Source: Halosimplex salinum (GTDB taxonomy: Archaea > Halobacteriota > Halobacteria > Halobacteriales > Haloarculaceae). Taken from it: a DNA stretch of 64,000 nucleotides. Where the stretch lies: contig NZ_QWGG01000005.1 in assembly GCF_003730195.1 (NCBI RefSeq), forward strand, positions 124,001 to 188,000, in the 5' to 3' direction. The translations under genes were made by a program, and so were the position numbers. The notes below the pieces were generated by a model that saw nothing but the letters and a program-made list of their open reading frames with translations, was not told the DNA's origin and did not search any database. Below, piece by piece: positions 40,293 through 62,730 of the stretch; positions within the stretch are counted from its first letter, which is position 1, and the number at the start of each line of letters is the position of its first letter.

Positions 40293-40550
40293 ATCCGTAT
40301 TCGTCGCTCTCGCGCTCCCGAACGGCTGTTTTTCCGCTCTCCTGTCTCCTGACCGGTTCGACCGCGTCTGACGCTGTCAACGGCATGCCGATATATCGAA
40401 TCGCGGGAGCGCCGCCACGGACGACCCGTCTGAGCAGCGCCGATTCGGTGCGAGACGGCCGTCGTGACACGCTCGGGAGAGACGACACAGTGTCGACGCC
40501 GGATTCCCCGCATCGGAGTGCTTACCGCCCGGTGACCGCCGTTTCTCTCC

Positions 40551-41450
40551 ATGGCGACGACCCTCGACGGCGAGGCACTGGCCGCTCGACTCCGCGACGA
40601 CCTGCGCGAGTCCGTCGAACGACTCGCGGACGCGGGCGTCCGGCCCGGACTGGCGACCGTCCACATGGGCGACGACCCCGCCGCGGAGTCGTACGTCGAG
40701 ATGAAACAGCGCGACTGCGCCGAACTGGGTATCGACGGGACGCACGTCGACCTCGACCCCGACGAATCGGCCGCGACGCTCCACGACACCATCGCGGATC
40801 TCAATGTGGACCCGGCGGTCCACGGGATCTTGATCCAGGACGACGTGCCCGATCACGTCGACTGGCGGGCGGCGGTCCGCGAGATCGACCCCGAGAAGGA
40901 CGTCGACGGACTCCACCCCGAGAACGTCGGTCGGCTCGTCGCGGGCGACCCACGGTTCGTCCCGTGTACGCCCCTCGGGATCCAGCGACTCCTCGCCGAG
41001 TACGAGATCGACCTCGCGGGCGCGCACGTGGTCGTCGTCAATCGGTCGATGATCGTCGGCAAGCCGCTGGCGGCCTTGCTGACCCAGCGGGGCGAGGGCG
41101 GCGACGCCACGGTGACGGTCTGCCACAGTCGGACCGACGGCCTCGCCGAGAAGACCTGGAACGCCGACGTTCTCGTCGTCGCCGTGGACGACCCGGAGTT
41201 CCTCGACGGATCGATGGTCAGTGAGGGAACGACGGTAGTCGACGTCGGGATCGGCCGCGTCCCGGCGGACACCGAACGCGGCTACGAACTCGTCGGCGAC
41301 GTGGAGGCGGCGAGCGTGGAGCCGAAAGCAGACTACTTCGCGCCCGTTCCCGGCGGCGTCGGCCCGATGACGCGGGTGATGCTCCACCGCAACACCGTCG
41401 AAGCCGTTCGCATTCAGGCCGGCACGTCCGTCGGTGAGGAGCGGCAGTAA
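40551..41450 (+). CDS. folD: Bifunctional methylenetetrahydrofolate dehydrogenase/methenyl-THF cyclohydrolase
   Basis: A 299-residue FolD that interconverts methylene-, methenyl- and formyl-tetrahydrofolate. Conserved pieces include PGLATVHMGDDPAAESYVEMKQRDC (with Y and K of the cyclohydrolase site), HGILIQDDVPDHVDW, KDVDGLHPENVGRL and PCTPLGIQRLL, then the NADP-binding VVNRSMIVGKPLAALL and PVPGGVGPMTR. All hallmark motifs are intact. The C-terminus is slightly extended (QAGTSVGEERQ). No neighbour is in folate metabolism. Confidence 0.95.
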   Translation: MATTLDGEALAARLRDDLRESVERLADAGVRPGLATVHMGDDPAAESYVEMKQRDCAELGIDGTHVDLDPDESAATLHDTIADLNVDPAVHGILIQDDVPDHVDWRAAVREIDPEKDVDGLHPENVGRLVAGDPRFVPCTPLGIQRLLAEYEIDLAGAHVVVVNRSMIVGKPLAALLTQRGEGGDATVTVCHSRTDGLAEKTWNADVLVVAVDDPEFLDGSMVSEGTTVVDVGIGRVPADTERGYELVGDVEAASVEPKADYFAPVPGGVGPMTRVMLHRNTVEAVRIQAGTSVGEERQ

Positions 41451-41621
41451 ACCGCCACGCGCTATACGAAACCTGCCGTGGCGAGTGATACGCACCGCAT
41501 CGATCCGCTCGTGGTTCGGGGGTTCGCGTCCTCCTGTGCTGCGATTTCGGTCGTGACGCCGGGTTCGCCGCTCCCGCTTCGAACCACAACCCCTACTTGC
41601 GCGCCCGGCGAGCGAGCAGGT

Positions 41622-42536
41622 ATGCAACTGGGCGTCATCGGACTCGGACGGATGGGGCAGATCGTCGTCGACCGCACGCTCGACGCCGGGCACGAGGTCG
41701 TCGCCTTCGACCTCGACGAGGAAGCGGTCGCGACGGCCGCCGACGCGGGCGCGACGCCGGCCGACTCCGCCGTCGACCTCGTCGAACGACTCGGCGACGA
41801 GAAACGGGTCTGGCTGATGGTCCCGGCCGGCGGGGCGGTCGACGCCGCGCTCGACGACCTCGAACCACACCTCGACGAGGACGACGTCGTCGTCGACGGC
41901 GGCAACTCCTACTTCGAGGACTCCGTCCGCCGCGCGGAGTCGACCGAGGCCGCCTACCTCGATTGCGGCACCTCCGGCGGCCCCGCCGGCGCGGAGCTGG
42001 GCTTCTCGCTGATGGTCGGCGGCCCCGAGTGGGCCTACGAGGAACTGACGCCCGTCTTCGACGCCGTCGCGACCGGCCCGGACGGCCACGACCGCATGGG
42101 TCCCGCCGGGTCGGGCCACTACGTCAAGATGGTCCACAACGGCGTCGAGTACGCGCTCATGCAGACCTACGGCGAAGGGTTCGAACTGCTCGCGAACGGC
42201 CGGTACGACCTCGACCTCGAGTCCGTCGCGCGCACGTGGAACAACGGTGCGGTCATCCGCTCGTGGCTGCTCGAACTCTGCGAGGAGGCGTTCCGCGAGG
42301 AGGGCAACCACCTCGGGACCGTGGCCGACCGCGTCGAGGGCGGGTCGACGGGGACCTGGACCGTCCAGGAGGCGCTCGAACAGGAAGTGCCGGTGCCGCT
42401 CATCTATCAGGCGCTCGCCGAGCGCTTCGACTCCCGGTCGGCGGGAGGCGAGGGGCCCGGTCGGTTCTCCCGGCGGCTGGCGAACCGGCTCCGGTACGGG
42501 TTCGGTCGCCACGAAGTTCCGCGGCGCGAGGAGTAG
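41622..42536 (+). CDS. gnd: 6-phosphogluconate dehydrogenase (decarboxylating), short type
   Basis: A 304-residue enzyme of the short, bacterial/archaeal GndA type, oxidising 6-phosphogluconate to ribulose 5-phosphate in the oxidative pentose-phosphate route. Motifs: LGVIGLGRMGQIVVDR (NAD(P) site), VVVDGGNSYFED, DCGTSGGPAGAELGFSLMVGG and GSGHYVKMVHNGVEYALMQ, with catalytic Lys in the last. Haloarchaea use this pathway to make pentoses. The start at 41622 has the Rossmann GxGxxG starting at residue 7. A GC-rich gene-free stretch precedes it. Confidence 0.94.
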   Translation: MQLGVIGLGRMGQIVVDRTLDAGHEVVAFDLDEEAVATAADAGATPADSAVDLVERLGDEKRVWLMVPAGGAVDAALDDLEPHLDEDDVVVDGGNSYFEDSVRRAESTEAAYLDCGTSGGPAGAELGFSLMVGGPEWAYEELTPVFDAVATGPDGHDRMGPAGSGHYVKMVHNGVEYALMQTYGEGFELLANGRYDLDLESVARTWNNGAVIRSWLLELCEEAFREEGNHLGTVADRVEGGSTGTWTVQEALEQEVPVPLIYQALAERFDSRSAGGEGPGRFSRRLANRLRYGFGRHEVPRREE

Positions 42537-42632: not shown

Positions 42633-43214
42633 ATGGTCGACCTAACGAGTGTCGTGCTCGGGGCGGGGTTGACGCTCATCGTCGTCGCGATCCACTACGC
42701 GAAGGGGACCGGCTGGGAGCCGGCGGCGGACATCTCCCAGGACGTCCTCGAACAGCGAGCGGCGGCGGTGCCCGAGACCGACTTCCCCGAACCTATGAAC
42801 CGCTCCATCGGCGGCGGCGCAGCCGGCGCCATCCCGTCCGGTGAAGGCGGTGCAGAGCTCGAAGAGGGCGAAGAGAGCGAGGAGGAGGAGGGCTTCGACC
42901 CCGAGTCGATCCCCGAGGACGAGGTCGAGTACTACGAGGTCGAGTTCGCCAAGGAAGGCGAGACCATCGAGATCGCCAACAACGAGAACATCCTCGACGT
43001 CGGCGAAGAGGAGGGCTGGGACCTGCCGTACGCCTGCCGCCAGGGCCAGTGTGTCTCCTGTGCCGGGCAGATCCAGGACGGCCCCGCGCTCGACTACATC
43101 CAGCACGAACACAACGAGGCGCTGTTCGACGACGACATGGAGGACGGCTACTGCCTGACCTGCGTCGCCTATCCGGTTGACGACTTCACGCTCGAAACCG
43201 GCGAGCAGCCCTGA
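42633..43214 (+). CDS. Membrane-anchored [2Fe-2S] ferredoxin
   Basis: A 193-residue protein: an N-terminal transmembrane helix (about residues 5-22), an acidic linker with Glu-rich stretch (about 70-85) and a plant-type [2Fe-2S] ferredoxin domain (about 95-190). Cluster ligands are CRQGQCVSC (C-x5-C-x2-C) and, about 36 residues later, YCLTC. Haloarchaeal ferredoxins carry electrons for 2-oxoacid oxidoreductases and other enzymes. The anchor suggests membrane-associated electron transfer. The partner is not in the window. Confidence 0.9.
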   Translation: MVDLTSVVLGAGLTLIVVAIHYAKGTGWEPAADISQDVLEQRAAAVPETDFPEPMNRSIGGGAAGAIPSGEGGAELEEGEESEEEEGFDPESIPEDEVEYYEVEFAKEGETIEIANNENILDVGEEEGWDLPYACRQGQCVSCAGQIQDGPALDYIQHEHNEALFDDDMEDGYCLTCVAYPVDDFTLETGEQP

Positions 43215-43485
43215 ACGCCGCGGTCACGAGTGTTCCGCGTTCTCTCCGTCTCGCACCGATACCGAGCGACAGCGCCCATCTCGATCCGAGGGCCCGTCGC
43301 TTAGCGGACACAGTAGCTGGTTCCGGGCCGAGATGTCACGGGCTCAAACCGCTCGGGCTCGGTTTGCGACGGCCTCGTGGACGTCAGTGAGTGTGATATC
43401 GCCTCTCTGACCGCCGGATACCCCGAATACGTGTCGTTCGATCGGGAATAAATATCATATACGTTCGTTCTAGACACTGGGGGAG

Positions 43486-45000
43486 ATGAGTGACCAGATA
43501 GACGACGTGGTCGTCGTGGGGGGCGGGGATTCGGGGCTGTTGGCGGCGCTCGCTCTGAAGAAGATGAACACGGGGCTCGACGTTTCGGTGATCGACGACT
43601 TCGAGGAAGACGTCCCACAGGTCGGAAAGAGCACGTTTCTGGCGATCCAGCACATCCTGCACGAGGACCTGGGGATCGACGAACGGGCGTTCGTCTCGGC
43701 GGTCAAACCCGTCTGGAAGGCCTCGGTGTACTTCCGGGACTGGTGTGGCTATCCCCCCTTTCACTACCCGTTCGACCAGAACCGGAAGTTCCCGAACCCC
43801 AACGAGCGAGACACGAACGAGGGGTACCACTACTACTACGACGAACTCCACAACAGCACCGACCACCAGTCGAAGTGCGAGGAGATGGTGTCGCAGGGCA
43901 AATCGCCCTGGTACTTCTCGCCGCGAGAGGGGGGCACTCGCAAGTACGACAACGTCGCCTACCACCTCAACACCGAACGGTTCAACACGTTCCTGCGGGA
44001 CCTGTGTCTCGACCGGGACATCGGGCTGATCGACGACGAGGTGGTCACCGTCGACGTCGCGAACGACCGGATCCAGCGACTCCGGGGTCGGAACGGGGCG
44101 TACGAAGCGGACCTGTACGTCGACGCGACGGGTTTCTCCCGCGTGCTGAAACGCGAGCAGAGCGACGAGTTCCACGAGTTCGACCTCCCGCTCGACTCGG
44201 CGCTGAACGCGCGGTCGGACCTCTCGCTCGACGAGGTCGTCCCGGCGACGGTCATCGACACGGGCGACCACGGCTGGTTCTGGCAGATAGACACGTTCGA
44301 CAACCGCGATCGCGGGTACGTCTACGCCTCGGAGTACGTCTCGGAGGCGGCGGCTCGAGAGGAGTTCGTCGACCACTGCGACGGGATCGCGGCCGAGGAC
44401 GTGGTGAAATACGAGTTCACGTCCGGCTACCACGAGCGCGCGTGGGTCGAGAACTGCGTCGCCATCGGCAACGCGGAGGGGTTCGTCGAACCGCTCCAGT
44501 CGACGGGGCTCACGGCCAACGCCAAGGCGTCGGTCACGCTCGCGACGCTCCTGTCGGGGCACGGGCGGGTGGCGGACGACGCGGTCAGGGAGCGGTACAA
44601 CGGGTGGGTCTCACGGTCGTGGGAGGCGATCTACGACTTCATCAGTGTCCACTACGCCTACGCCGACGGCGGCACCGAGTTCTGGCGGGACGTTCAGGAC
44701 ATCGAACTCAGCCCGCGGACGGAGATGCTGATCGAGCACTTCGACCGCCACGGGTTCGACACGCACGTCGACCCGGCGATACACTCCGAACACGACGACC
44801 TGCTGTTCTTCCGGGCGCGCCACTTCTACGCGCTGATGCGGAACATGGGCGCCACCTCCGAGTTCTACGAGACGCACGACTTCGAACTGAGCGACGCGGT
44901 CCGGCGAGCAGTCGACCAGCACTACGGAGCGATCGAGGACGACGTGGCCGACCACTACGACCACCGCGAGTACTACCACGGCGTGCTGGGTCAACACTGA
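43486..45000 (+). CDS. Tryptophan halogenase-like FAD-dependent monooxygenase/halogenase
   Basis: A 504-residue flavoprotein of the tryptophan-halogenase family. GGGDSGLLAAL is the FAD fold, VGKSTFLAI corresponds to the usual GEAT-type segment, WKASVYFRDW carries a lysine at the position of the family's catalytic Lys, and GNAEGFVEPLQSTGL is the C-terminal FAD/tunnel motif. The usual WxWxIP appears as GWFWQID, so the halogenation signature is altered. Family members chlorinate or brominate aromatic substrates with reduced FAD; this one may be a divergent halogenase or another flavin enzyme. It has its own promoter (AATAAATATCATATA at about 43450-43464) and SD GGGGGAG. Confidence 0.75.
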   Translation: MSDQIDDVVVVGGGDSGLLAALALKKMNTGLDVSVIDDFEEDVPQVGKSTFLAIQHILHEDLGIDERAFVSAVKPVWKASVYFRDWCGYPPFHYPFDQNRKFPNPNERDTNEGYHYYYDELHNSTDHQSKCEEMVSQGKSPWYFSPREGGTRKYDNVAYHLNTERFNTFLRDLCLDRDIGLIDDEVVTVDVANDRIQRLRGRNGAYEADLYVDATGFSRVLKREQSDEFHEFDLPLDSALNARSDLSLDEVVPATVIDTGDHGWFWQIDTFDNRDRGYVYASEYVSEAAAREEFVDHCDGIAAEDVVKYEFTSGYHERAWVENCVAIGNAEGFVEPLQSTGLTANAKASVTLATLLSGHGRVADDAVRERYNGWVSRSWEAIYDFISVHYAYADGGTEFWRDVQDIELSPRTEMLIEHFDRHGFDTHVDPAIHSEHDDLLFFRARHFYALMRNMGATSEFYETHDFELSDAVRRAVDQHYGAIEDDVADHYDHREYYHGVLGQH

Positions 45001-45011
45001 GCTCGTCGGAG

Positions 45012-45467
45012 TCAGTCGTTGACGAGCGACTCCGTCCGACCGGTCAGCTCGTCGGGCTGGAGTCGGAAGAAGTCGAACGACACCATCCGTAACGGCTCCT
45101 CGAACACGTCGACCAGCGGGATGTCGACCCGCTCCATCCCTGCCAGCGTCTCGGTCGCGATCTTCTCCTCGTCCGCGTCCTCGAGCCGTCCGCGAGCGAC
45201 GACGCTACACCACCGGTCGTCCTCGCCTTCGGTCCCGTAGGCCACGAACGTCACCGGTCTGTCGGCGAGGTCCTCGGGGTCGTCGCCGGGACCGAGCGAG
45301 ATACGGAAGTAGAAGACGTCGTCCGTCTGGTCGTAGCCGTAGGACACCGGAACCGCGTCCGGGGGTTCGTCCCCTCGCGTCGAGAGGGAGAGGACTCCCG
45401 TTCCCCCCGTCCCCAGGAACCGGTCGCGCTCTTCGGGTTCCATCTCGATCTCCTCCGCATCGGTCAT
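45012..45467 (-). CDS. Pyridoxamine 5'-phosphate oxidase-like (FMN-binding split barrel) protein
   Basis: A 151-residue split-barrel protein. The pattern FLGTGGTGVLSLSTRGDEP, AVPVSYGYDQTDDVFYFR and WCSVVARGRLED is typical of the small PPOX/flavin-reductase-like family. Such proteins bind FMN or F420 and act as oxidases, reductases or ligand-binding proteins; the activity here cannot be told. Possible leaderless promoter CTTATTAGC (complement of about 45489-45497) lies about 25 bases before the start. Convergent with the halogenase-like gene. Confidence 0.82.
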   Translation of the reverse strand: MTDAEEIEMEPEERDRFLGTGGTGVLSLSTRGDEPPDAVPVSYGYDQTDDVFYFRISLGPGDDPEDLADRPVTFVAYGTEGEDDRWCSVVARGRLEDADEEKIATETLAGMERVDIPLVDVFEEPLRMVSFDFFRLQPDELTGRTESLVND

Positions 45468-52082: not shown

Positions 52083-53153
52083 ATGGAGGAGGACGAACTC
52101 CTGGGTGGACTCGAAGACGCGGGGTTGACGACGTACCAGTCCGAGGCGTACCTGACGCTGCTCGACATGGGGGTGTCGCCAGCGGTGGACGTGGCTCGGA
52201 ACTGCTCGATCCCGGTGCCGCGCATATACGACGTCCTGAACGAACTGGAGCAGATGGGGTACGTGGAGACGCTCGACAGGGAGACGCTCCACGCGAGAGC
52301 ACGCGAACCGGCCGAGTTCGTCCAGGACCTCCACGAGCGCAGCGACCGCATCTCGGCGGTCGCGGACGAGATCGAGGACCGCTGGGAGGCGTCGCCGCTG
52401 GGGGACAGTAAGATGAACGTAACCAAGCGCGTGGAGACGGTCCTCGACCACGCCGAGGACCTCATCCGCGAGGCGGAGTCGTCCGTCGACCTCGCGCTGA
52501 CGGACGAGCAACTGGTCGCCTACGAGAGCGCGCTGGACGAGGCGATGGACGACGGCGTCGTCGTCCGCGCATCGGTCGTCCCGGCCGAAGGGATCGACCT
52601 CGCCGAGCACCCGGTCAGTGACGTGGTCACCGAGATACGCGAGCGTCCGATCCCGGGGCCGTTCTGCGCGCTCGTCGACCGGACGAAGGCGTGTCTGGCG
52701 CCGACGACGCGCATGTCGGACCCGTACGGCGTCGTCATCGACGACGACATCATGCCCTTCATCTTCCGGTGGTACTTCCAGACGTGTCTCTGGGCGGTGT
52801 GGGACACCGTCTCGTGCAACAGAGGGGGGTCGCCCGTGTACGTCTCGCTCGAGGAGTTCATCAGGGACATCTACCCGCTCTGGCGCGACGACGCCGTCGT
52901 CTCGGTGACCGTCAGGGGGACCGAGACCGAGTCCGGGACGGACCGGGAGGTCTCCGGCGTCCTCGTCGACGTCCAGTACTCCGCGGCGTCGGTGACGTCG
53001 AACCAGACGCCGTCGCTCGTCGACCTCTCCGGGCAGGCGGCGATCACGCTCTGGACCCCAGAGGGACGGTGTTCGGTCGGGAGCTGGGGCGCGCTCCTCG
53101 AGGACATCGAGGCCTGCCGCGTCACGGTCGACGCGATCGAGTGGCTCGACTGA
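52083..53153 (+). CDS. TrmB-family sugar-responsive transcriptional regulator upstream of the polysaccharide-hydrolase cluster
   Basis: A 356-residue TrmB regulator. The N-terminal winged helix reads LEDAGLTTYQSEAYLTLLDMG and NCSIPVPRIYDVLNELEQMGYVE, followed by a coiled coil (about 85-110) and a large C-terminal sensor domain (about 120-355), containing a PLD-like core and a beta-rich sugar-binding-type end (VLVDVQYSAASVTSNQTPSLVDLSG in part). Family members bind maltose, glucose or other sugars and repress or activate sugar genes. It is encoded directly before the cellulases and on the same strand, 401 bases upstream, so it is the best candidate for their control. TTTAATT upstream (about 52064-52070) gives a near-leaderless start. 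Confidence 0.9.
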   Translation: MEEDELLGGLEDAGLTTYQSEAYLTLLDMGVSPAVDVARNCSIPVPRIYDVLNELEQMGYVETLDRETLHARAREPAEFVQDLHERSDRISAVADEIEDRWEASPLGDSKMNVTKRVETVLDHAEDLIREAESSVDLALTDEQLVAYESALDEAMDDGVVVRASVVPAEGIDLAEHPVSDVVTEIRERPIPGPFCALVDRTKACLAPTTRMSDPYGVVIDDDIMPFIFRWYFQTCLWAVWDTVSCNRGGSPVYVSLEEFIRDIYPLWRDDAVVSVTVRGTETESGTDREVSGVLVDVQYSAASVTSNQTPSLVDLSGQAAITLWTPEGRCSVGSWGALLEDIEACRVTVDAIEWLD

Positions 53154-53554
53154 CGCCACCCGGCGACGACCACCGAGAACCCCGGGCGGCTCCGTCACAC
53201 TCGATGCGATCTAGTGTCACCAGAGAATATAGATTTTCCATGTAAATTACTTGTATTAACTCTCGTTTAAACGAACACGGGCTCCAGATCTCGGGAGACT
53301 CTCCCTTTCTCACTGTCAGATCTTCGCAACCCCGATCCGTTCACATCCCTTACTTGTTGGAAATATTACCATGACTTACCAGATTTATTAAGTACTGTCA
53401 GCTGTTTCGAAAAACGAATATTTAGCCTCTCTAGTGCAATAATTGGGCACTTTAGGGATGGCGTGAAATCATTACCTATCGAGCTAGAAAAATTTTTTAT
53501 ACCGGTCTTACGTTGTTGGTTCTACACACCACGCGGTGTGTATCGGAGGACGAC
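53154..53554. promoter_or_regulatory. AT-rich control region of the hydrolase cluster, with promoter, 5' hairpin and SD
   Basis: This gene-free region is AT-rich. TTTTTTATACC at about 53494-53502 is the likely TATA box; transcription would start near 53524. Exactly there lies a perfect 7-bp stem, ACACACC (53524-53530) loop ACGC then GGTGTGT (53535-53541), so the mRNA would begin with a stem-loop, followed by GGAGGA (53545-53550) four bases before the ATG. The region is long enough to bind a TrmB-type regulator; no clear palindrome for it was noticed. Confidence 0.62.
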
Positions 53555-55462
53555 ATGGCAAATAACGAGCAACCCCCTGATGGGGGAAGAGAGGCATCGC
53601 TATCCGACGAATCGAGCGCGGACGGCGGGGGACCGTCCAGACGAAACTTCCTGAAAGGCAGCGCAGCGGCCGGCGCCATCGCTCTCGGCGTCGGGGCAGG
53701 GGCCATCGGGAGCGCGTCGGCGGGGATCCCGACACCCCGGCTCCACCGCGACGGCAACCTGATCAAGGACCCCGACGGCAACACGGTCACGCTCCGCGGG
53801 GTCAACATCGCGGACCCGAAGCGGCTCAACCTCACCGCGTCGGCGCGTGGGAAAGACGCCGTCCAGACGATCGACATGCTCACCGACGCGAGCAACGGCT
53901 GGTACCCGCGGACGATCCGCGTCCCGGTACAGCCCGTCGACATCGGCGAGTACGAGCCCGGTTCCGGCCCGCCGGTACCGGCGTTCGACGAGGACCAGCT
54001 GCGGAGCTACCTCACGAACCACCTCGACGAGGTGGTCCAGCGGTGCGCCGAGCGCGGCGTCTACTGTATCATCGACTATCACCGCCACCGCGACGTCATG
54101 TGGGCCGAGGGCCAGAACGGTCCGGTCAACACGGAGCTCCAGGACGAGGTCGACATGTTCTGGGACGTCGTCGCGCCGCGGTACGCGGAGGACTCGCACG
54201 TCCTCTACGAGGTGTACAACGAGCCGACCGAGCCCGGCATGTGGGAGGACCCCACCACCACGCAGTGGGTCGCCGACATCTGGGACCTGTGGCTGGAGAT
54301 GGCCCAGCCGTGGGTCGACACCATCCGCGGCCACGCCGACAACCTCATCCTGATGGGCTCGCCCAGCTGGTCGCAGAGCCCGGAGGGCGCCCTCGTCGAG
54401 GAGTTCGACGGCGAGGACATCGCCTACACGTACCACATCTACCCCGGTCACAACTCCAGCCGGGCCCAGGACTGGGAGGACGCCTCGAACAACGGCGAGG
54501 GCGTCGCCGGCGTCTACGAGCAGGCGCCCCTGTTCGTCACGGAGTTCGGCTGGGAGGAGGGCGGCGGCCAGTACATCGGCGGCACCGACGAGTTCGGGAC
54601 CGCCTTCCTCGACTTCCTCGAGAAGAGCGAGGCGATCCACTGGACCGCCTGGTGTGCCGACCCGGTCTGGCGCCCGGTGATGTTCGACCGGCCGTTCGCC
54701 GAGAACGTGAACGACTCCATCGGCGACCCGTACAACGGCACGATCCCCGAGACCTGTGAGGACCTGCCGTGTGAGTGGTCGCTCACCACCGGCAGCGGCG
54801 GGATGGGCGACGACGTCAAGGACGCCCTCGAACAGTACCGCAACGACGGGATCCCCGGCGACGGGACGGTGCGTCCGCCGACGGACGAACCCACCGACGA
54901 ACCGACGGACGAACCGACCGACGAGCCAACCGACGAACCGACGGACGAACCCACCGACGAGCCGACGGACGAACCGACCGACGAGCCGACAGACGAACCG
55001 ACGGACGAGCCGACCGACGAACCGCCGGCGGACGCGATGGTCGTCGACGACTACGACGGCGACCCGGGCTGGTCGTCCCACCGGAACGATCTGGGTCAGT
55101 GGTGCGGGGCCGGCTCGTTCGAGAACGGCGGCGGCGAGGAACAGGGCGGCACGCTCGTCCTCGAGTACGACAACGGCGGCTGGTTCCAGGAGCAGATCAA
55201 CGAGGACGTCTCCGACTACTCGACGCTGGTGTTCACCATCAGCGGCGCGAACGGTGGCGAGGAGGACGAGGTGCTGTTCGACATGGGCGGTGTCCGTACC
55301 ATGCTCTCGAACGTCACCGACGACTCCATCGGCACGAGCACGTCCGAAGTGCGCGTCGACATGGAGGCGGCCGGGATCGACCGGTCGTCGCCGTCCGTGC
55401 GCTTCAACTTCTGGCAAGGGGGAGCCAGCACGCTCGAACTCGAGCAGATCCACCTCGAATAG
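53555..55462 (+). CDS. Secreted GH5 endoglucanase-type glycoside hydrolase with C-terminal module
   Basis: A 635-residue Tat-exported enzyme. The signal has SRRNFLKG (twin Arg at 29-30) and likely cleavage after GSASA (residue 56). The GH5 barrel (about 57-430) begins GIPTPRLHRDGNLIKDPDGN, with acid/base Glu in VYNEPTEPG (residue 223) and nucleophile Glu in FVTEFGW (residue 330). A (TDEP)n linker (about 443-490) leads to a C-terminal module (about 494-635) rich in Trp/Asn/Gly (DLGQWCGAGSFENGGG). GH5 enzymes cleave beta-1,4-glucans or mannans; the exact substrate is not known. SD and promoter precede it. Confidence 0.9.
   Translation: MANNEQPPDGGREASLSDESSADGGGPSRRNFLKGSAAAGAIALGVGAGAIGSASAGIPTPRLHRDGNLIKDPDGNTVTLRGVNIADPKRLNLTASARGKDAVQTIDMLTDASNGWYPRTIRVPVQPVDIGEYEPGSGPPVPAFDEDQLRSYLTNHLDEVVQRCAERGVYCIIDYHRHRDVMWAEGQNGPVNTELQDEVDMFWDVVAPRYAEDSHVLYEVYNEPTEPGMWEDPTTTQWVADIWDLWLEMAQPWVDTIRGHADNLILMGSPSWSQSPEGALVEEFDGEDIAYTYHIYPGHNSSRAQDWEDASNNGEGVAGVYEQAPLFVTEFGWEEGGGQYIGGTDEFGTAFLDFLEKSEAIHWTAWCADPVWRPVMFDRPFAENVNDSIGDPYNGTIPETCEDLPCEWSLTTGSGGMGDDVKDALEQYRNDGIPGDGTVRPPTDEPTDEPTDEPTDEPTDEPTDEPTDEPTDEPTDEPTDEPTDEPTDEPPADAMVVDDYDGDPGWSSHRNDLGQWCGAGSFENGGGEEQGGTLVLEYDNGGWFQEQINEDVSDYSTLVFTISGANGGEEDEVLFDMGGVRTMLSNVTDDSIGTSTSEVRVDMEAAGIDRSSPSVRFNFWQGGASTLELEQIHLE
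54886..55021 (+). repeat. (TDEP)n linker-coding tandem repeat in the first GH5 gene
   Basis: A 12-base unit coding for the tetrapeptide Thr-Asp-Glu-Pro, with silent third-base changes between copies, runs about a dozen times. It makes a flexible, acidic linker between catalytic and C-terminal modules. A shorter version (about nine copies) lies at about 56968-57075 in the next gene, and a Pro-Thr-Asp-Thr version at about 59140-59225. Confidence 0.9.
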
Positions 55463-55492
55463 CGACGCAACTACCCACACCCTACCACATCA

Positions 55493-57511
55493 ATGTCAAA
55501 GAAAGACACACACGGTACCGAACAGTCGACGAACGATTCGACGGGCGATAGCGGCTTCTCGCGACGGAGCGTCCTGAAGGCGACGGGCGCGGCGGCGGTC
55601 ACGGCCGGCTTCGCCAACAGCATCATGGGGTCGGTGGCGGCAGAGGGGATCGACACCCCGTGGCTCCACCGCGACGGCAACCTCGTCCGCGACCCGAGCG
55701 GTAACAAGGTGATCCTCCGCGGTGTCAACATCGCGGACCCGGCCCGTCTCGCGCGGAGCTGGCGCAGCAAGGACGCCATGGGCGTCTTCGAGAAGACGAT
55801 CAACACCGACGAGTCGAACGACGGCGGCTGGCACAGCCGGATCGTCCGCATTCCGACCCAGCCCCAGGACATCGCGGACGCGGGCTCGGGAAGCGTCGGC
55901 AGCATGCCCCACGGCGACGACTGGGGCCCGCTCCTGCCGGGGCAGTTCGACGAGTCGGACATGGAGACGTACTTCACCACGTACGTCGACCCGCTGATCG
56001 ACGCGGCCGAGGAGCACGGGCTGTACGTGATGCTCGACTACCATCGCCACTTCCCGATCTTCCACCAGCCCCAGAACGAAGCCGACATCGGCGAGTACCA
56101 GTGTGGCAACGAGTCGTTCGAGGACGACCTGGGCTTCTGTGGCGAGCGCGGTGTCCTCTGGAACAGCGAGGACCAGGCCTCCGAACTGGACGGGTACACC
56201 GAGGAGTACGCGGCGGAACTCGACCAGGAGCTCCACGACTACTGGAACTTCGTCGCGCCCCGCTACAGCGACCGTTCGCACGTCATCTACGACGTGTACA
56301 ACGAGCCGACCGGCCCCTACGCCGGCGACTGGGGGACGCCCACCCGTGAGCCCAACGCCGGAGAGGACGCCGGGCAGGACACCGACGTGACCGCACAGGA
56401 GGCCAAGCGCTACTGGGACATGTGGCTCGACCGCGCCCAGCCGTGGATCGACACGGTCCGCGAGCACGCCGACAACCTGCTCACCATCGGGTCGCCCCGG
56501 TGGAGCCAGTACACCTACTGGGCGGCCGAGGACGAGTTCCAGGGCGACAACATCTGTTACACCGGCCACGTCTACACCCACGACGACCTGCGCCCGCTCT
56601 CCGAGTACTACGGGACGCCCGCCGAGGAGGTCCCGGTGTTCTTCAGCGAGTTCGGCTGGGCAGAGGGCGGCGGCAAGGACAACTTCAGCTTCCTCGAGGG
56701 GACGGCCGACGAGTACGCCGACGACTTCGAGAGCTTCATCGACGAGTACCCGGTCCACCCGATCTGCTGGAACTTCGACCACACCTGGGAGCCCGCGTTC
56801 TTCAAGCACGAGGAGAGCCAGGACGGCGACTGGGAGATCCACGACTACCAGGACCGTCCCGGGCAGTGGTGGCAGGGCTACCTCGAAGAGCACCGCAACG
56901 ACGACCTGCCACAGGCGGACGGCTCGACCACGACGGCGCCGCCGACGACCACGACGTCGCGGCCGACCGACGAGCCGACTGACGAACCCACCGACGAACC
57001 GACGGACGAGCCGACCGACGAGCCGACGGACGAACCAACGGACGAGCCGACGGACGAACCCACCGACGAACCGCCGGCGGACGCGATGGTGGTGAACGAC
57101 TACGACGGCGACCCGGCGTGGTCGTCCCACCGGAACGACCTCGGGCAGTGGTGCGGGGCCGGTTCCTTCGAGAACGGCGGCGGCGAGGTCCAGAACGGTG
57201 CACTGGTTCTGGAGTACGACAACGGCGGCTGGTTCCAGGAGCAGATCAACCAGGACGTCTCCGACTACTCGACGCTGGTGTTCACCATCAGCGGCGCCAA
57301 CGGGGGCGAGGAGGACGAGGTGCTGTTCGACATGGGCGGTGTCCGTACCATGCTCTCGAACGTCACCGACGACTCCATCGGCACGAGCACGTCCGAAGTG
57401 CGCGTCGACATGGAGGCGGCCGGGATCGACCGGTCGTCGCCGTCCGTGCGCTTCAACTTCTGGCAGGGCGGCTCCAGCACGCTCGAACTCGAGCAGATCC
57501 ACCTGGAGTAG
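55493..57511 (+). CDS. Secreted GH5 glycoside hydrolase with C-terminal module (second)
   Basis: A 672-residue relative of the upstream enzyme, 30 bases after it. Tat signal SRRSVLKA (twin Arg 24-25); the mature domain starts GIDTPWLHRDGNLVRDPSGN. Acid/base Glu is in VYNEPTG (residue 271) and nucleophile Glu in FFSEFGW (residue 386). It has about 45 extra residues around NEADIGEYQCGNESFEDDLG and a charged stretch EPNAGEDAGQDTD before the core helix, so substrate preference may differ. Linker Thr/Pro-rich then (TDEP)n, followed by the C-terminal module (about 531-672). The last 161 bases of its module core match those of the first gene exactly. Confidence 0.9.
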   Translation: MSKKDTHGTEQSTNDSTGDSGFSRRSVLKATGAAAVTAGFANSIMGSVAAEGIDTPWLHRDGNLVRDPSGNKVILRGVNIADPARLARSWRSKDAMGVFEKTINTDESNDGGWHSRIVRIPTQPQDIADAGSGSVGSMPHGDDWGPLLPGQFDESDMETYFTTYVDPLIDAAEEHGLYVMLDYHRHFPIFHQPQNEADIGEYQCGNESFEDDLGFCGERGVLWNSEDQASELDGYTEEYAAELDQELHDYWNFVAPRYSDRSHVIYDVYNEPTGPYAGDWGTPTREPNAGEDAGQDTDVTAQEAKRYWDMWLDRAQPWIDTVREHADNLLTIGSPRWSQYTYWAAEDEFQGDNICYTGHVYTHDDLRPLSEYYGTPAEEVPVFFSEFGWAEGGGKDNFSFLEGTADEYADDFESFIDEYPVHPICWNFDHTWEPAFFKHEESQDGDWEIHDYQDRPGQWWQGYLEEHRNDDLPQADGSTTTAPPTTTTSRPTDEPTDEPTDEPTDEPTDEPTDEPTDEPTDEPTDEPPADAMVVNDYDGDPAWSSHRNDLGQWCGAGSFENGGGEVQNGALVLEYDNGGWFQEQINQDVSDYSTLVFTISGANGGEEDEVLFDMGGVRTMLSNVTDDSIGTSTSEVRVDMEAAGIDRSSPSVRFNFWQGGSSTLELEQIHLE

Positions 57512-57631
57512 GCGACACGAGCGACACCACCCGTCCACCCGGGCGACCCGGCCACACCGCTGGACCCCTTCGACCGGGGTCCCCGGCCGCTGAACCGAAC
57601 GGACTGTCCCACACATCGAGTCACACGAACC

Positions 57632-58069
57632 ATGTCACACGACGAGCGGACGGACGACCGCGACGGAACGGGCAGTGACCGTGCGTTCGACGCGCCCTCG
57701 CGGCGGGAGGACGCGGATCTCGCCGCCGTCCCCGCCGGTGGGGGCCCGGCAGGCGAACTGTCGACTGCCGTCCCCGCGCCGACGGGGTTGACGGTCGAGA
57801 GCGTGACCGAGGTCACGGTCACGGTCTCGTGGTCGACGGCCCGCGTCGCCTCCGACGCTCGCGTCGACCACTACGCCGTCTCGGTCGACGGGCGGACGCG
57901 GGCGGCAGCCGACCGGGGGAGGAACCGCGCCGCGGTCGCCAATCTGGCGCCCGGCACGACCTACACCATCGGCGTCGCGGCGGTCGACGCCGCAGGCAAC
58001 GAGTCCCGGCCGGCGACGACCGAGGTGACGACCGATCCCGTCGCAGTCCGGGAGACCGGCGCCGAGTAA
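57632..58069 (+). CDS. Small fibronectin type III domain protein, without recognisable signal
   Basis: A 145-residue protein between the GH5 and GH12-like genes. Residues about 50-135 are one FnIII domain: GLTVESVTEVTVTVSWSTAR, HYAVSVDGRTRAAADRG, LAPGTTYTIGVAAVDAAGNES. The N-terminal 45 residues are acidic and disordered with no Tat motif or hydrophobic signal, unlike all its neighbours. It may be a broken piece of a modular hydrolase, an intracellular protein, or secreted by a non-classical route. Similar FnIII domains occur in the enzyme at 59705-62692. Confidence 0.65.
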   Translation: MSHDERTDDRDGTGSDRAFDAPSRREDADLAAVPAGGGPAGELSTAVPAPTGLTVESVTEVTVTVSWSTARVASDARVDHYAVSVDGRTRAAADRGRNRAAVANLAPGTTYTIGVAAVDAAGNESRPATTEVTTDPVAVRETGAE

Positions 58070-58210
58070 TCCGCAGCGCGTCCCGCTCCCGTTCACCGGC
58101 TGTCGGGCGACACCGGGGGTAACTGACGCCCGACGGGCGACGTGAACGAGGGGCGCGAACAGGGGGAACGGACCGCACGCAACAGCGAACCAACGACGGA
58201 GCACACACGG

Positions 58211-59683
58211 ATGACATCACACGACGCGAACGGACGGACCGACGAATCGAACGAACAGAGAGCCGACGCGACCACGGGCGGCGACGGGTCCAGCCAGCGC
58301 GGCACGTCTAGACGGAGCGTCCTCAAGGCCGGCGCGGCGCTGGGTGCGGGCGGCCTCGCGCTCGGCCTGGGCAACCGGGCCACGGCGGCGAAGGTCGAGG
58401 AGATCTGCAACTCCGACTACGGCACCATCGAGGTGGCCGACGGGTTCTCGCTGATCGACAACCGCTGGGGCAACGACGCCGCCGACCAGTGCATCTGGCT
58501 GAACGAGGACGGCAGCTACGGCTACGACTTCGACGCCTCCGGGACCGACGGCGGGATCAACTACCCGGAGCTGCTCGTCGGTACCAAACCCTGGGGCTCG
58601 GACAGCGGCGTCGCCGAGTTCCCGATCCAGCGGCGGGACGTCGACGAGCTGGTGATCGACGTCGAGGCGGACTACGAGGAGTCCGGCGGCGAGTGGGACT
58701 GGGCCGAGGAGTGGTGGCTGATGGAGCAGCCGCCGAGCCAGGAGACCGGGACCCACCAGTACGAGATCATGTTGCTGCTCGACTGGAACGACCAGCACAG
58801 CCACGGACAGCTGGTGGAGGAGTCGATCTGGACCGACCAGTACGGCAACACCGTCGACCTCTGGGCGCGATACGACGGCGGCGGGACGGACGCGACGTTC
58901 TTCATCTTCCGCATCCAGGGCGGTCACGACGGCGGCAAGATCGACCTGTCGGAGATCGTCGACTACCTCACCGACGAACGCGGCGTCCGTGAGGACCTCT
59001 GGCTCTCCGGGATCGAACTCGGCAACGAGTACTGGGCCGGCTCGTCGGGCGAGACCACGTACAACACGTTCGACGTGACGATCAACGGCACGACGTACTC
59101 GAGCGGCAGCGACGGCGGCGGTAATCAGACGCCGACGCCGACCGACACGCCGACTAACACGCCGACCGACACGCCCACCGATACGCCGACCGATACGCCG
59201 ACGGACACGCCCACCGACACGCCCGACGACGGAGACGAGGGGAGTCCCGGCGATTCGATGGTGGTCAACGACTACGACGGCGACCCGGCGTGGTCCTCCC
59301 ACCGGAACGACCTCGGGCAGTGGTGCGGGGCCGGCTCCTTCGAGAACGGCGGCGGCGAAGTGCAGGACGGTGCGCTCGTCCTCGAGTACGACAACGGCGG
59401 CTGGTTCCAGGAGCAGATCAACCGGGACGTGAGCGACTACTCCGACCTCGTCTTCAGCGTCAGCGGCGCGAACGGCGGCGAGGAGGACGAGGTGCAGGTC
59501 AGTATGGGCGGGACGACGGCGATGCTGGCCGATCTGACGAGCGACTCGGTCGAGACGAGCACGTCGGACGTGCGTATCGACATGGAGGCGGCCGGGATCG
59601 ACCGGTCGTCGCCGTCGGTGCGGCTGAACTTCTGGCAGGGCGGCAGTAGCACGCTCGAGATCGACGAGATTCGGCTCGAATAG
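58211..59683 (+). CDS. Secreted GH12-like beta-glucanase with C-terminal module
   Basis: A 490-residue Tat-exported protein (SRRSVLKAGAAL). The mature domain (about 60-290) resembles GH12: FSLIDNRWGNDAADQCIWL, YPELLVGTKPWG, and a jelly-roll pattern. Candidate nucleophile is the Glu in YEIMLLLDW (residue 185) and acid/base the Glu in LSGIELGNEYW (residue 269); these positions are by motif and not proven. A (PTDT)n linker leads to a C-terminal module (about 349-490) related to those of the neighbouring GH5 enzymes. GH12 enzymes hydrolyse beta-1,4- or xyloglucans. The ATG at 58211 is chosen over one at 58142 because the Tat motif then lies at a normal distance. Confidence 0.75.
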   Translation: MTSHDANGRTDESNEQRADATTGGDGSSQRGTSRRSVLKAGAALGAGGLALGLGNRATAAKVEEICNSDYGTIEVADGFSLIDNRWGNDAADQCIWLNEDGSYGYDFDASGTDGGINYPELLVGTKPWGSDSGVAEFPIQRRDVDELVIDVEADYEESGGEWDWAEEWWLMEQPPSQETGTHQYEIMLLLDWNDQHSHGQLVEESIWTDQYGNTVDLWARYDGGGTDATFFIFRIQGGHDGGKIDLSEIVDYLTDERGVREDLWLSGIELGNEYWAGSSGETTYNTFDVTINGTTYSSGSDGGGNQTPTPTDTPTNTPTDTPTDTPTDTPTDTPTDTPDDGDEGSPGDSMVVNDYDGDPAWSSHRNDLGQWCGAGSFENGGGEVQDGALVLEYDNGGWFQEQINRDVSDYSDLVFSVSGANGGEEDEVQVSMGGTTAMLADLTSDSVETSTSDVRIDMEAAGIDRSSPSVRLNFWQGGSSTLEIDEIRLE

Positions 59684-59704
59684 AACCACACAGGAGGGAT
59701 TCAG

Positions 59705-62692
59705 GTGACACACAACGACTCGACGTCGACGGACGGAACGGGCGAAAGACAGCCGGAATCCGGTCGCGGGACCGGCGGCACGACCAGACGGACGGCGCTG
59801 AAGACCATCGGCGCGGCGGCGGCGGGGACCCTCGTCAGCGGACGGGCGAGCGCGGGCGTCCCGACGCCGCGACTCCACACCGACGGCAAGTGGATCCGCG
59901 ACCCGCAGGGCAACGAGGTCCAGCTCCGCGGGATGGCGACGGCCGACCCCGCCTTCTACCGGCGGACCCATCCCAAGTCCTTCGAGGAGGTGCTCCGGCG
60001 GGCGACCGACGAGTCCGAGGGCTGGCACCCGAACGTCGTCCGCCTGCCGTTCACGCAGGACAACGTCGACTACTACGGTATCGACACGATGATAGAGGAG
60101 TTCGTCCGACCGTCGGTCGACATCCTCGCCTCGCGGGACGTGTACGCGCTGGTGGACTTCCACCTCATCAGGCCGTACACGCAGGACGCGACGGACACCT
60201 ACAACGAGGAGAACGACGACAGCCTCGCGCCCATCGACGACGTGATGACGACGTTCTGGGAGGCGGTCGCACCGGAGTTCGCCGACGACGAGCACGTCAT
60301 CTTCGAGCTGTTCAACGAGCCGACCCAGCCGACGATGTACGGCGACGACGAGGGCGCCTGGCAGGCGTGGCGCGACGCGGCCCAGCCGTGGGTCGACCTC
60401 GTCCGCGAGCACGCGCCCGAGACGCCGCTCATCATCGGCTCGCCGCGGTGGACGTCGGTGACCCACATGGCGCCGGAGTACCCCTTCGACGGGGAGAACC
60501 TGATCTACGCCTCCCACATCTACCCCGACAACGGGGCGCCCTCGGAGTTCGACCAGTACTACGGCGAACCCGCGAACGACGTGCCGGTCGTCGTGACCGA
60601 GTTCGGCTGGGACCCCGAGGGCGGGCAGGTCGACAACGGGACCACCTCCGGGTGGGGCGAGCCGTTCAGCGAGTGGGCCGAGAGCTACGAGAACATGGGC
60701 TGGATCTCGTGGTGTTTCGACGACTCGTGGGCGCCGACGTTCTTCGACTCCCCGGGCGACGGCGCGGCCGAGCCGTGGACGCTGAAGACCGACGACGACC
60801 AGATGGGCGGCTACATCAAGTCGTGGCTCGACGAGCGGAAGGACGACAGCATCCCGGCCAGCACGATCGACGACTCGACGGCGCCGCCGACCCCGTCGAA
60901 CCTGACAGTGACGGCGGCGACGGAGATCAGCGTCGACGTCTCGTGGGACGCCGTGACGGACGAGGGCGACGCGGGACTCTCCCACTACGCGCTCTCGGTC
61001 GACGGCGAACCGAACCAGGAGGCGCTCCCCGGGGCGACGACGGCGACGGTGTCCGACCTCGACCCGGCGACGACCTACGAGATCGCGGTCACCGCGGTGG
61101 ACGACGCGGGCAACGAGTCCGACCCCGCGACGGTCGTCGCCGAGACGATCGCGACCGACGCCCAGCAGTCCGCCTACAACGGCCCGCACACGCTGCCCGG
61201 CCGGGTGCAGGCGGAGGACTTCGACGAGGGCGGCGAGGGGATCTCCTACCACGACACGACCCCCTCGAACCAGGGCGGCGCCTCGTACCGCGACACGGCC
61301 GTCGACATCGGCACGTCGGCGGAGTCGGGCTACAACGTCGGCTACATCGACACCGGCGAGTGGCTGGAGTACACCGTCCAGGTCGAGTCCGCGGGGTCGC
61401 GCACGGCCACCGTCAACGTCGCGGCCGGCGAGGGCGGCGGCGGTAGCCTCCGGATCGACGTCGACGGCGAGACGATCGCGACGCAGGACGTCTGGCAGAC
61501 CGGCGGCTGGTCGAACTGGCAGGAGATCCGCGTCGGCGACGTGAGCCTGCCCGAGGGCGAACACGTCCTCCGAGTCACCGCCGAATCGGGCGCCTGGAAC
61601 CTCGACTGGCTGCAGTTCGGCGAGGCGAGCGACGACGGCGACCAGCAGGCGCCGTCGGCCCCCTCGGACCTGTCGGTGTCGGGGACGACTCCCTCGTCGC
61701 TCGACCTGTCGTGGGACGCGGCCACCGACGAGGGCGGCAGCGGCCTCGACCACTACGTCGTGTACGTCGACGGGTCGCAGGACCAGACCGTGGCTACCGG
61801 CACGACGACGGCGACGGTCGCGGACCTCGCGGCCGACACCAGCTACGAGGTCGGCGTCTCGGCGGTCGACGGCGCGGGCAACGAGTCGGCGGTCGTCACC
61901 GTCACGGCACGGACCGACCAGATCGACGACGGCGACTCGATGGCGCCCGTGACGCCGTCGAACCTGTCGGTGACCGAGGCGACGACCGATTCGGTGACCG
62001 TCTCCTGGGACGCGGCCACCGACGAGGGCGGCAGCGGCCTCGACCACTACGTCGTGTACGTCGACGGATCGCAGGACCAGACGGTCGGCGCCGACACCAC
62101 GTCTGCGACAGTCGACGGCCTGTCCGCCGACACGAGCTACGACGTCGCGGTCTCGGCGGTCGACGGCGCGGGCAACGAGTCGTCGGCCGCGACCGTCACG
62201 GCGACGACCGACCAGTCCGACGACGGCGACGACTCCGGCGACGGGACACCGACCGAGGCGATGGTGGTGAACGACTACGACGGCGACCCGGCGTGGTCGT
62301 CCCACCGGAACGACCTCGGTCAGTGGTGCGGGGCCGGTTCCTTCGAGAACGGCGGCGGCGAAGTCGATGGCGGCGCACTGGTTCTGGAGTACGACAACGG
62401 CGGCTGGTTCCAGGAGCAGATCAACCAGTCGGTCGAGGCGTACTCCGACCTCGTCTTCCGTGTGAGCGGTGCGAACGGGGGCGAAGAGGACGAGGTACTG
62501 TTCGACATGGGCGGCGTCCGCACCGTGCTCTCGAACGTCACCGACGACTCGGTGGGGACGAGCGTGTCGGACGTGCGCGTCGACATGGAATCGGCGGGGA
62601 TCGACCGCTCTGCGGGGGACCTCTCGGTGCGGCTGAACTTCTGGCAGGGCGGTAGTAGCACACTCCGGATCGACGAGATCCAGCTCGAATAG
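59705..62692 (+). CDS. Large modular secreted GH5 glycoside hydrolase: GH5-FnIII-CBM6-FnIII-FnIII-C-terminal module
   Basis: A 995-residue protein starting with GTG at 59705, 21 bases after the previous stop. Tat signal TTRRTALKTIG, then GH5 barrel (about 50-385) with acid/base Glu in LFNEPTQ (residue 205) and nucleophile Glu in VTEFGWD (residue 299). FnIII 1 (about 393-480), a CBM6-type module (about 490-642, containing RVQAEDFDEGGEG and SWNLDWLQF-like GAWNLDWLQF), FnIII 2 (about 647-738), FnIII 3 (about 749-837) and the shared C-terminal module (about 852-995) follow. FnIII 2 and 3 share a nearly identical stretch of about 75 bases 294 bp apart, a recent internal duplication. It is the largest enzyme of the cluster. 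Confidence 0.92.
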   Translation: MTHNDSTSTDGTGERQPESGRGTGGTTRRTALKTIGAAAAGTLVSGRASAGVPTPRLHTDGKWIRDPQGNEVQLRGMATADPAFYRRTHPKSFEEVLRRATDESEGWHPNVVRLPFTQDNVDYYGIDTMIEEFVRPSVDILASRDVYALVDFHLIRPYTQDATDTYNEENDDSLAPIDDVMTTFWEAVAPEFADDEHVIFELFNEPTQPTMYGDDEGAWQAWRDAAQPWVDLVREHAPETPLIIGSPRWTSVTHMAPEYPFDGENLIYASHIYPDNGAPSEFDQYYGEPANDVPVVVTEFGWDPEGGQVDNGTTSGWGEPFSEWAESYENMGWISWCFDDSWAPTFFDSPGDGAAEPWTLKTDDDQMGGYIKSWLDERKDDSIPASTIDDSTAPPTPSNLTVTAATEISVDVSWDAVTDEGDAGLSHYALSVDGEPNQEALPGATTATVSDLDPATTYEIAVTAVDDAGNESDPATVVAETIATDAQQSAYNGPHTLPGRVQAEDFDEGGEGISYHDTTPSNQGGASYRDTAVDIGTSAESGYNVGYIDTGEWLEYTVQVESAGSRTATVNVAAGEGGGGSLRIDVDGETIATQDVWQTGGWSNWQEIRVGDVSLPEGEHVLRVTAESGAWNLDWLQFGEASDDGDQQAPSAPSDLSVSGTTPSSLDLSWDAATDEGGSGLDHYVVYVDGSQDQTVATGTTTATVADLAADTSYEVGVSAVDGAGNESAVVTVTARTDQIDDGDSMAPVTPSNLSVTEATTDSVTVSWDAATDEGGSGLDHYVVYVDGSQDQTVGADTTSATVDGLSADTSYDVAVSAVDGAGNESSAATVTATTDQSDDGDDSGDGTPTEAMVVNDYDGDPAWSSHRNDLGQWCGAGSFENGGGEVDGGALVLEYDNGGWFQEQINQSVEAYSDLVFRVSGANGGEEDEVLFDMGGVRTVLSNVTDDSVGTSVSDVRVDMESAGIDRSAGDLSVRLNFWQGGSSTLRIDEIQLE

Positions 62693-62730
62693 GACGGACG
62701 ACCGGACGCGAAAACGGCACACACGGAACG

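Follow-up and report, generated by a model that had tools for sequence, protein, structure and literature searches.

A haloarchaeal member of the flavin-dependent halogenase family with glutamine at the position of the catalytic glutamate

The stretch of Halosimplex salinum DNA analyzed in this work (64,000 nucleotides; the window) encodes a protein of the flavin-dependent halogenase (FDH) family that retains the catalytic Lys of these enzymes but has Gln at the position of the catalytic Glu. The initial annotation of this DNA had noted an altered GEAT and WxWxIP in this one gene; these changes are real, and according to our alignments they and the Gln are a property of a whole haloarchaeal group and not a quirk of one genome. 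The Gln of E346Q, a crippling laboratory mutation of PrnA, is the natural and conserved state of the entire group. We infer a divergent haloarchaeal FDH-like enzyme, halogenase-type chemistry (formation of hypohalous acid) with its individual steps, and a class of substrate other than tryptophan, and we give this reading roughly even chances.

43486..45000, + strand: gene for the FDH-like flavoenzyme (ATG start, 504 amino acids plus stop; PF04820, modelled fold)

The ORF is real and conserved, and its membership in PF04820 and the FDH fold are certain, in agreement with the FAD fold and family that had been proposed for it. In a Pfam search the 504-residue protein matches PF04820 over positions 1-447 of the 458 in the profile (262.7 bits, E 8.2e-78; cut-off 21); PHROG 2928 ('tryptophan halogenase') is a further profile match, and none of the best 25 of 38 NCBIfam models exceeds its own cut-off. 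The AlphaFold2 model (pLDDT 88.3, pTM 0.90) has the variant-A FDH fold; it aligns with AbeH, PyrH, SttH, MibH and PrnA with Z about 37-40 over ~470 residues (for 8fov_A, Z 39.8, rmsd 2.5 and 474 aligned residues), and its identity to solved FDHs is 21-26% over the 452-480 residues aligned structurally. Halosimplex orthologues share 73-76% identity with the window protein (e.g., 75% for that in genome G161, of the same genus). Comparison of the window gene with four Halosimplex-type orthologues gives dN of 0.149-0.170, dS of 0.454-0.518 and dN/dS of about 0.31-0.36; thus, the gene is under purifying selection.

The motifs that characterize the FDHs are located in the protein as follows.

43519..43536, + strand: GxGxxG flavin site, residues 12-17 (GGGDSG), with Asp15 in place of the Thr, Ser or Ile of the comparators
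43624..43635, + strand: GKST in place of GExT, residues 47-50; Lys48 replaces the flavin-loop switch Glu (Glu46 of PyrH and AbeH)
43717..43719, + strand: Lys78, which aligns with the catalytic Lys (K79 in PrnA, K75 in AbeH), within WKASVYFRDW
44275..44295, + strand: WFWQIDT, residues 264-270; WxWxI is retained, Pro is replaced by Asp269, and strict WxWxIP is absent
44482..44508, + strand: FVEPLQSTG, residues 333-341; the tunnel motif Fx.Px.Sx.G is retained, with Gln338 at the catalytic-Glu position, followed by Ser339

As the initial annotation proposed, the Lys of WKASVYFRDW aligns with K79 of PrnA and GEAT has become GKST. Its description of WxWxIP as altered to WFWQID (residues 264-269) is accurate for the Pro, which is Asp; the signature part, WxWxI, is intact. 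In the excerpted text of PMC12871659, WxWxI is the FDH signature and is held to prevent monooxygenation. The Glu replaced by Lys48 corresponds to Glu46/Glu49, described in an excerpt of PMC11840605 as flipping on flavin-loop closure in AbeH/BorH. In support of this column assignment, a profile search scored the E46Q chain of PyrH (2wes) at 187.5 bits and the wild type at 186.3; the profile has Gln in the column in 3 of its 21 rows and Glu in none.

The segment GNAEGFVEPLQSTGL (residues 328-342) had been listed as a catalytic match; this does not hold, because the counterpart of E346, the catalytic Glu of PrnA, is Gln (residue 338), and strict PLES is absent. The claim of a halogenase had been staked on the catalytic Lys and Glu; with the Lys present and the Glu absent, only half of its strong form survives. 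We place Gln338 at the catalytic-Glu position because of the aligned ranges and the order of the scores for E346D with an Asp-containing query, the residue-level PrnA alignment not being printed. Residues 8-99 of a 101-residue piece with Asp put at position 338 aligned with residues 317-407 of the PrnA chain, and this piece scored 37.9 bits with PrnA E346D (2jkc) vs 36.1 bits with wild-type PrnA; with the native query the mutant was not ahead (118.0 vs 119.0 bits). Glu occupies the position in all nine printed PDB chains (MibH, AbeH, Th-Hal, Tar14, SttH, VirX1, 9lu2, 2pyx and BrvH). The catalytic Glu of AbeH is given as Glu352 in the cited part of PMC11840605; by chain count, with the offset fitted on Glu46 and Lys75, this is the Glu of FVEP (conserved here as E335) and not that of PLES. 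Despite this conflict we retain Q338 as the equivalent because the PrnA numbering and the halide site of RebH (T359/G360, as excerpted from PMC5945002) both point to PLES; Thr340-Gly341 is at the backbone position of that site.

Of 391 Halobacteria genomes searched at the protein level, 21 gave a match, which in one (G064) is only a short stretch at the flavin site; the remaining 20 (the carriers) contain 22 loci, that is, the gene is patchily distributed. The identical 22 loci score above 200 bits in a search of the same genomes with PF04820. Some PF04820 match at E 1e-8 or better occurs in 171 of the 391 genomes; the others listed have at most 56 bits and cover part of the profile (the first pass scored at most three candidates per genome in the protein search and at most four in the Pfam search). 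In the alignment of the 22 loci, Lys78, Asp269, Gln338 and WFWxIDT are invariant; of the 21 loci whose N-terminus is intact, 18 have GKST and 3 have GQGT. We also aligned 38 non-redundant rows, that is, the 22 loci, contig loci selected with the pattern GF[VI]EPLQ[SA]T and one plasmid copy, less duplicates; three pieces of a broken copy (L071), seven bacterial rows and seven near-identical duplicates (45 reduced to 38) were left out. Gln338 is present in 38/38 of these rows, a count biased by the pattern, so the 22 loci are the unbiased set. Among rows that contain the residue, Lys78 is conserved in 37/37, Asp15 in 35/35 and Lys48 in 33/37; W264, W266, I268, D269 and T270 are conserved in 38/38. 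The tunnel motif is more variable: its last Gly is Ala in 24 rows and Ser in 3, and its Ser is Ala in 3. In a midpoint-rooted tree of 28 rows, all 14 haloarchaeal sequences group together (100/100) on a long stem of 2.29, adjoined (96/92) by a bacterial pair, L066 and the NRPS-linked L109; twelve duplicate, broken or partial rows were left out of one tree and L054_1 out of the 28-row tree.

Several copies are disrupted or repeated. In genome G247 an IS66-type transposase gene interrupts the FDH-like gene (L036, 6751-10199), a natural disruption, and another IS66 copy lies immediately upstream. The metagenome-assembled genome (MAG) CSSed162cmA_432R1 contains six FDH-like copies or pieces (L053, two in L054, L058, L065 and L071); the broken copy L071 (7875-9058) is ~11 kb from the intact L058 on the same contig.

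The replaced residues distinguish the haloarchaeal proteins from their relatives. Among the plasmid and phage matches of the window protein we chose 11 comparators from bacteria and phages; in these, the Glu of PLE(S/A/G), the Glu of GE(A/S/G) and the catalytic Lys are each present in 11/11; strict WxWxIP is present in 6/11, and Asp replaces its Pro in none. The characterized variant-A FDHs (PrnA, RebH, PyrH, AbeH and Thal) share with the window protein the whole-length fold, GxGxxG, WxWxI, the catalytic Lys and Fx.Px.Sx.G; however, the window protein has Gln for their catalytic Glu, Lys for the Glu of GExT and Asp for the Pro of WxWxIP, and it has no Trp3 or Trp4 motif. BrvH, an FDH of group C in PMC8269204, resembles it in that the excerpted account reports no Trp4 motif and links no halogenated product or cluster to it, and BrvH does not accept free Trp according to an excerpt of PMC5945002; unlike the window protein, BrvH retains the catalytic Glu. 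A pattern that requires Gln retrieved seven more bacterial proteins, which have PLQST together with GEAT and WxWxIP; the Gln has thus arisen elsewhere too, the full combination being seen here only in haloarchaea. Streptomycete-type FDHs (L067-L070, L072 and L073) have GEAT and WIWTIP but PLQST; the L070 gene, the only one of those scanned, is beside genes for a LysE exporter and a LuxR-type regulator. A literature search identified no published haloarchaeal FDH among the matches listed, which does not prove absence from print; on halogenase, the excerpt of PMC8305020 has just one reference, on SAM-dependent enzymes.

The genome neighborhood of the window gene agrees with the earlier description of a gene that stands alone with its own promoter: 271 bp separate its ATG from the stop of the upstream [2Fe-2S] ferredoxin gene, and the downstream gene is convergent.

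43447..43461, + strand: candidate archaeal TATA-type promoter box (AATAAAT...), ~39 bp before the ATG, judged by eye
45012-45467, - strand: PF12900 split-barrel gene, convergent, 11 bp after the stop of the FDH-like gene

By eye, an AT-rich box is also upstream of the gene in three of four Halosimplex-type orthologues (L025, L046 and L047) and is weaker in the fourth (L045). The surroundings in the window encode tetrahydrofolate dehydrogenase/cyclohydrolase, 6-phosphogluconate dehydrogenase (41478-42536), DUF2267, RNB, squalene/phytoene synthase and L15e. We discarded the PF12900 gene as a partner, as it is not beside the FDH-like gene in the other loci compared, and the ferredoxin (42633-43214) as a redox partner, as its cluster (c13) occurs in 4 of 50 neighborhoods, all Halosimplex-type (the window, L047, and L025 and L045 with intervening genes). 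No neighbor is common to the whole group in the neighborhoods compared; near relatives show local synteny (c6 adjoins the gene in g18 and g20; c19/c20 flank it in g43 and g56). The neighbor lists are approximate, as the gene caller was trained on seven stretches, one of them in the wrong frame (41600-42533), and produced a false antisense gene at 40380-42512.

As had been noted for the window, no obvious biosynthetic cluster accompanies the gene, and none is shared across the group; we also agree with the initial annotation in assigning no substrate. NRPS condensation domains are found in none of the 20 carriers, and a LanM-type DUF4135 is found in one, which is not the window's genome; tailoring of a lanthipeptide or of an NRPS product was discarded on these counts. 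The window's genome lacks a PF01613 flavin reductase, which 13 of 14 control genomes have, Haloferax volcanii among them. It occurs in 7/20 carriers vs 56/116 Halobacteria sampled, and in those seven it is on another contig or at least 0.9 Mb from the FDH-like gene; thus, its presence does not appear to be coupled to that gene, and a dedicated PF01613 reductase is unlikely. The window's genome encodes two PF03358 FMN reductases that could supply reduced flavin.

The haloarchaeal cytoplasm contains molar chloride. In the chemistry that we favor, the enzyme would bind FADH2 from a general cellular flavin reductase, reaction with O2 would give the flavin hydroperoxide, and this would react with the cytoplasmic chloride to give hypohalous acid that would pass down the FDH tunnel to Lys78. 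A non-tryptophan, electron-rich substrate would then be halogenated or oxidized with no need for a general-base Glu; Gln338 would only orient the hypohalous acid or the substrate, and some members of the group may encounter the substrate while glycans are degraded.

We favor this FDH-type reading because Lys78 is present in 22/22 strong loci, WxWxI and Fx.Px.S are retained, the protein has the PF04820 profile and the fold, and the gene is under purifying selection. FDH chemistry with Gln is conceivable because, in the passages excerpted from PMC5727139, chlorination by PrnA E346Q is two orders of magnitude slower and not abolished, whereas K79A is dead; an excerpt of PMC9764358 describes K79 as not exchangeable, and K87A of the phenol FDH PltM is dead (PMC6424973, in excerpt). 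However, Gln may abolish halogenation because, according to the same excerpt of PMC9764358, the catalytic Glu also holds HOCl and takes a proton from the intermediate, and the flavin site may work differently because GExT (at its Glu), WxWxIP (at its Pro) and GGGT (at its Thr) have changed together. As judged from these residues, the retained Lys, WxWxI and tunnel motif would speak for halogenation, and the absence of the Glu base throughout the group and the remodelled flavin loop against it; the lack of PF01613 in the window's genome and in 13/20 carriers may also count against a halogenase.

The strongest alternative, a real possibility that we nevertheless hold to be somewhat unlikely, is a flavin oxygenase (hydroxylase or oxidase) that does not halogenate. 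In such a remodelled FDH scaffold, without the Glu base and with an altered flavin environment, the substrate would be oxygenated by the hydroperoxide itself, as in QhpG-type monooxygenases, which are distant relatives. The group-wide replacement of the catalytic Glu and of the Glu of GExT, together with the Asp residues in GGGD and WFWQID, is in accord with such an enzyme, as is the fact that neither a halogenated product nor a biosynthetic cluster is linked to the gene. QhpG is also the best NCBIfam match (51.1 bits), followed among these distant profile relatives by GoxB (34.9 bits) and LodB (26.2 bits), but the cut-offs of 240, 400 and 400 bits are far from reached and the window protein is not a recognized member of any of the three. 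The retention of WxWxI in 38/38 rows, the motif held to prevent monooxygenation in the excerpt cited above, of Lys78 in every row that contains it and of the tunnel Ser in 35/38 argues for the FDH-type reading. If the group halogenates, it shows an FDH that works without the Glu base; if it does not, WxWxI and the Lys are no proof of halogenation in genome annotation.

Other explanations are improbable. A catalytically dead or regulatory flavin-binding protein would fit the loss of the catalytic residue, and the copy split by IS66 and the MAG copy broken into several frames suggest that the gene is dispensable in places; however, the dN/dS and the invariance of the Lys and WxWxI across proteins that are 39-75% identical to that of the window point to a conserved active site. 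A halogenase of peptidyl tryptophan that acts, like the tryptophan 5-halogenase MibH, on a lanthipeptide has still less to commend it: MibH is the top solved relative by sequence (26%) and by Foldseek, though AbeH is first after structural re-ranking, and MibH itself has GEAT, WCWTIP and PLES, the window's genome has no lanthipeptide synthetase, and no lanthipeptide family is among the neighbor families listed (three sets in full and, for two more, the 25 commonest of 109 and of 146). We give almost no credence to a true, free-tryptophan 7-halogenase, the product name of haloarchaeal proteins on Halalkalicoccus and Haloarcula marina plasmids in the public records, which PF04820 membership would allow but which was rejected because of Gln338 and the absence, in a regular-expression search, of the substrate motifs excerpted from PMC8269204 (Trp4 of groups A and B, and the QxxQ/QxxxQ motifs of Trp3); the lack of NRPS condensation domains in all 20 carriers also speaks against it. 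Thus, 'tryptophan-halogenase-like', as the window protein had been called, is apt for its family and fold and unsupported as to tryptophan, and to label such proteins 'tryptophan 7-halogenase' is misleading whether or not they halogenate. For a third relative, encoded on a Halomontanus plasmid, the record gives no more than FAD-dependent oxidoreductase.

The neighborhoods of some members suggest a link to glycan degradation, which we regard as a lead only and as post hoc. On the Halomontanus rarus plasmid, a region of ~33 kb that includes the gene (its protein has GKST, WFWQIDT and PLQST) also contains a complete ABC transporter, two GH97 genes and eight sulfatase-like genes; the copy on the Haloarcula marina plasmid adjoins GH2, and farther out are gfo6, GH3, beta-galactosidase and a sugar ABC transporter. 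Genomes G138 and G282 have a GH42 gene 1 kb from the FDH-like gene, G161 has a GH3 gene at 3.4 kb, and the loci of one MAG include sulfatases, SBP_bac_5 and UxuA. GH2, GH3 or GH42 genes, families that were chosen after the neighbors had been seen, are within 5 kb in 4 of the 22 loci, with 0.42 expected (Poisson 0.0009, or 0.009 as three genera); when 18 weak matches are omitted, 0.37 are expected (Poisson 0.0006, three genera 0.006). All four loci come from one taxonomic family, with the GH gene and the FDH-like gene on opposite strands in each. Widening the distance to 10 kb weakens the three-genera value to 0.04, and no GH2/3/42 gene lies within 10 kb of any of the remaining 18 loci. The window copy is outside the four, the nearest counted GH2/3/42 gene being 91.5 kb away.

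At 52083-63999 on the + strand, the window itself encodes a TrmB sugar regulator and, after it, a cluster for plant polysaccharides: two GH5 genes with PT repeats, then GH12, a GH5 carrying CBM6/CBM35-type domains, and a GH10 that extends past the window; these genes start 7-18 kb downstream of the FDH-like gene, past housekeeping genes.

It is conceivable, though we think it doubtful, that haloarchaea have a branch of FDH-fold enzymes of their own in which the flavin site and the base were rebuilt (D15, K48, D269 and Q338) for a new reaction, with or without halogenation, in the degradation of sulfated or plant glycans. They would then parallel the 'tryptophan halogenase' genes that in some bacteria are neighbors of TonB receptor, SapC or glycosidase genes. 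The members in glycan loci are a concrete place to seek the substrate of orphan halogenase genes; our literature search found no report that joins tryptophan halogenase with TonB-dependent and polysaccharide utilization, SapC or glycoside hydrolase. Of ten annotated bacterial and phage comparators (flanks of 0.6-4 kb; L108 is without annotation), four have a TonB receptor beside the FDH gene: those of Sphingomonas and Pseudoalteromonas, with SapC, that of Hirschia, with a LacI regulator, and that of Croceicoccus, with an alpha-L-fucosidase. The other six are beside NRPS, LysE, nodD2, PrnB-like or phage genes; on an Azotobacter salinestris plasmid typed as conjugative (L117), the FDH gene is immediately followed by a PrnB-family gene, possibly a pyrrolnitrin-type locus.
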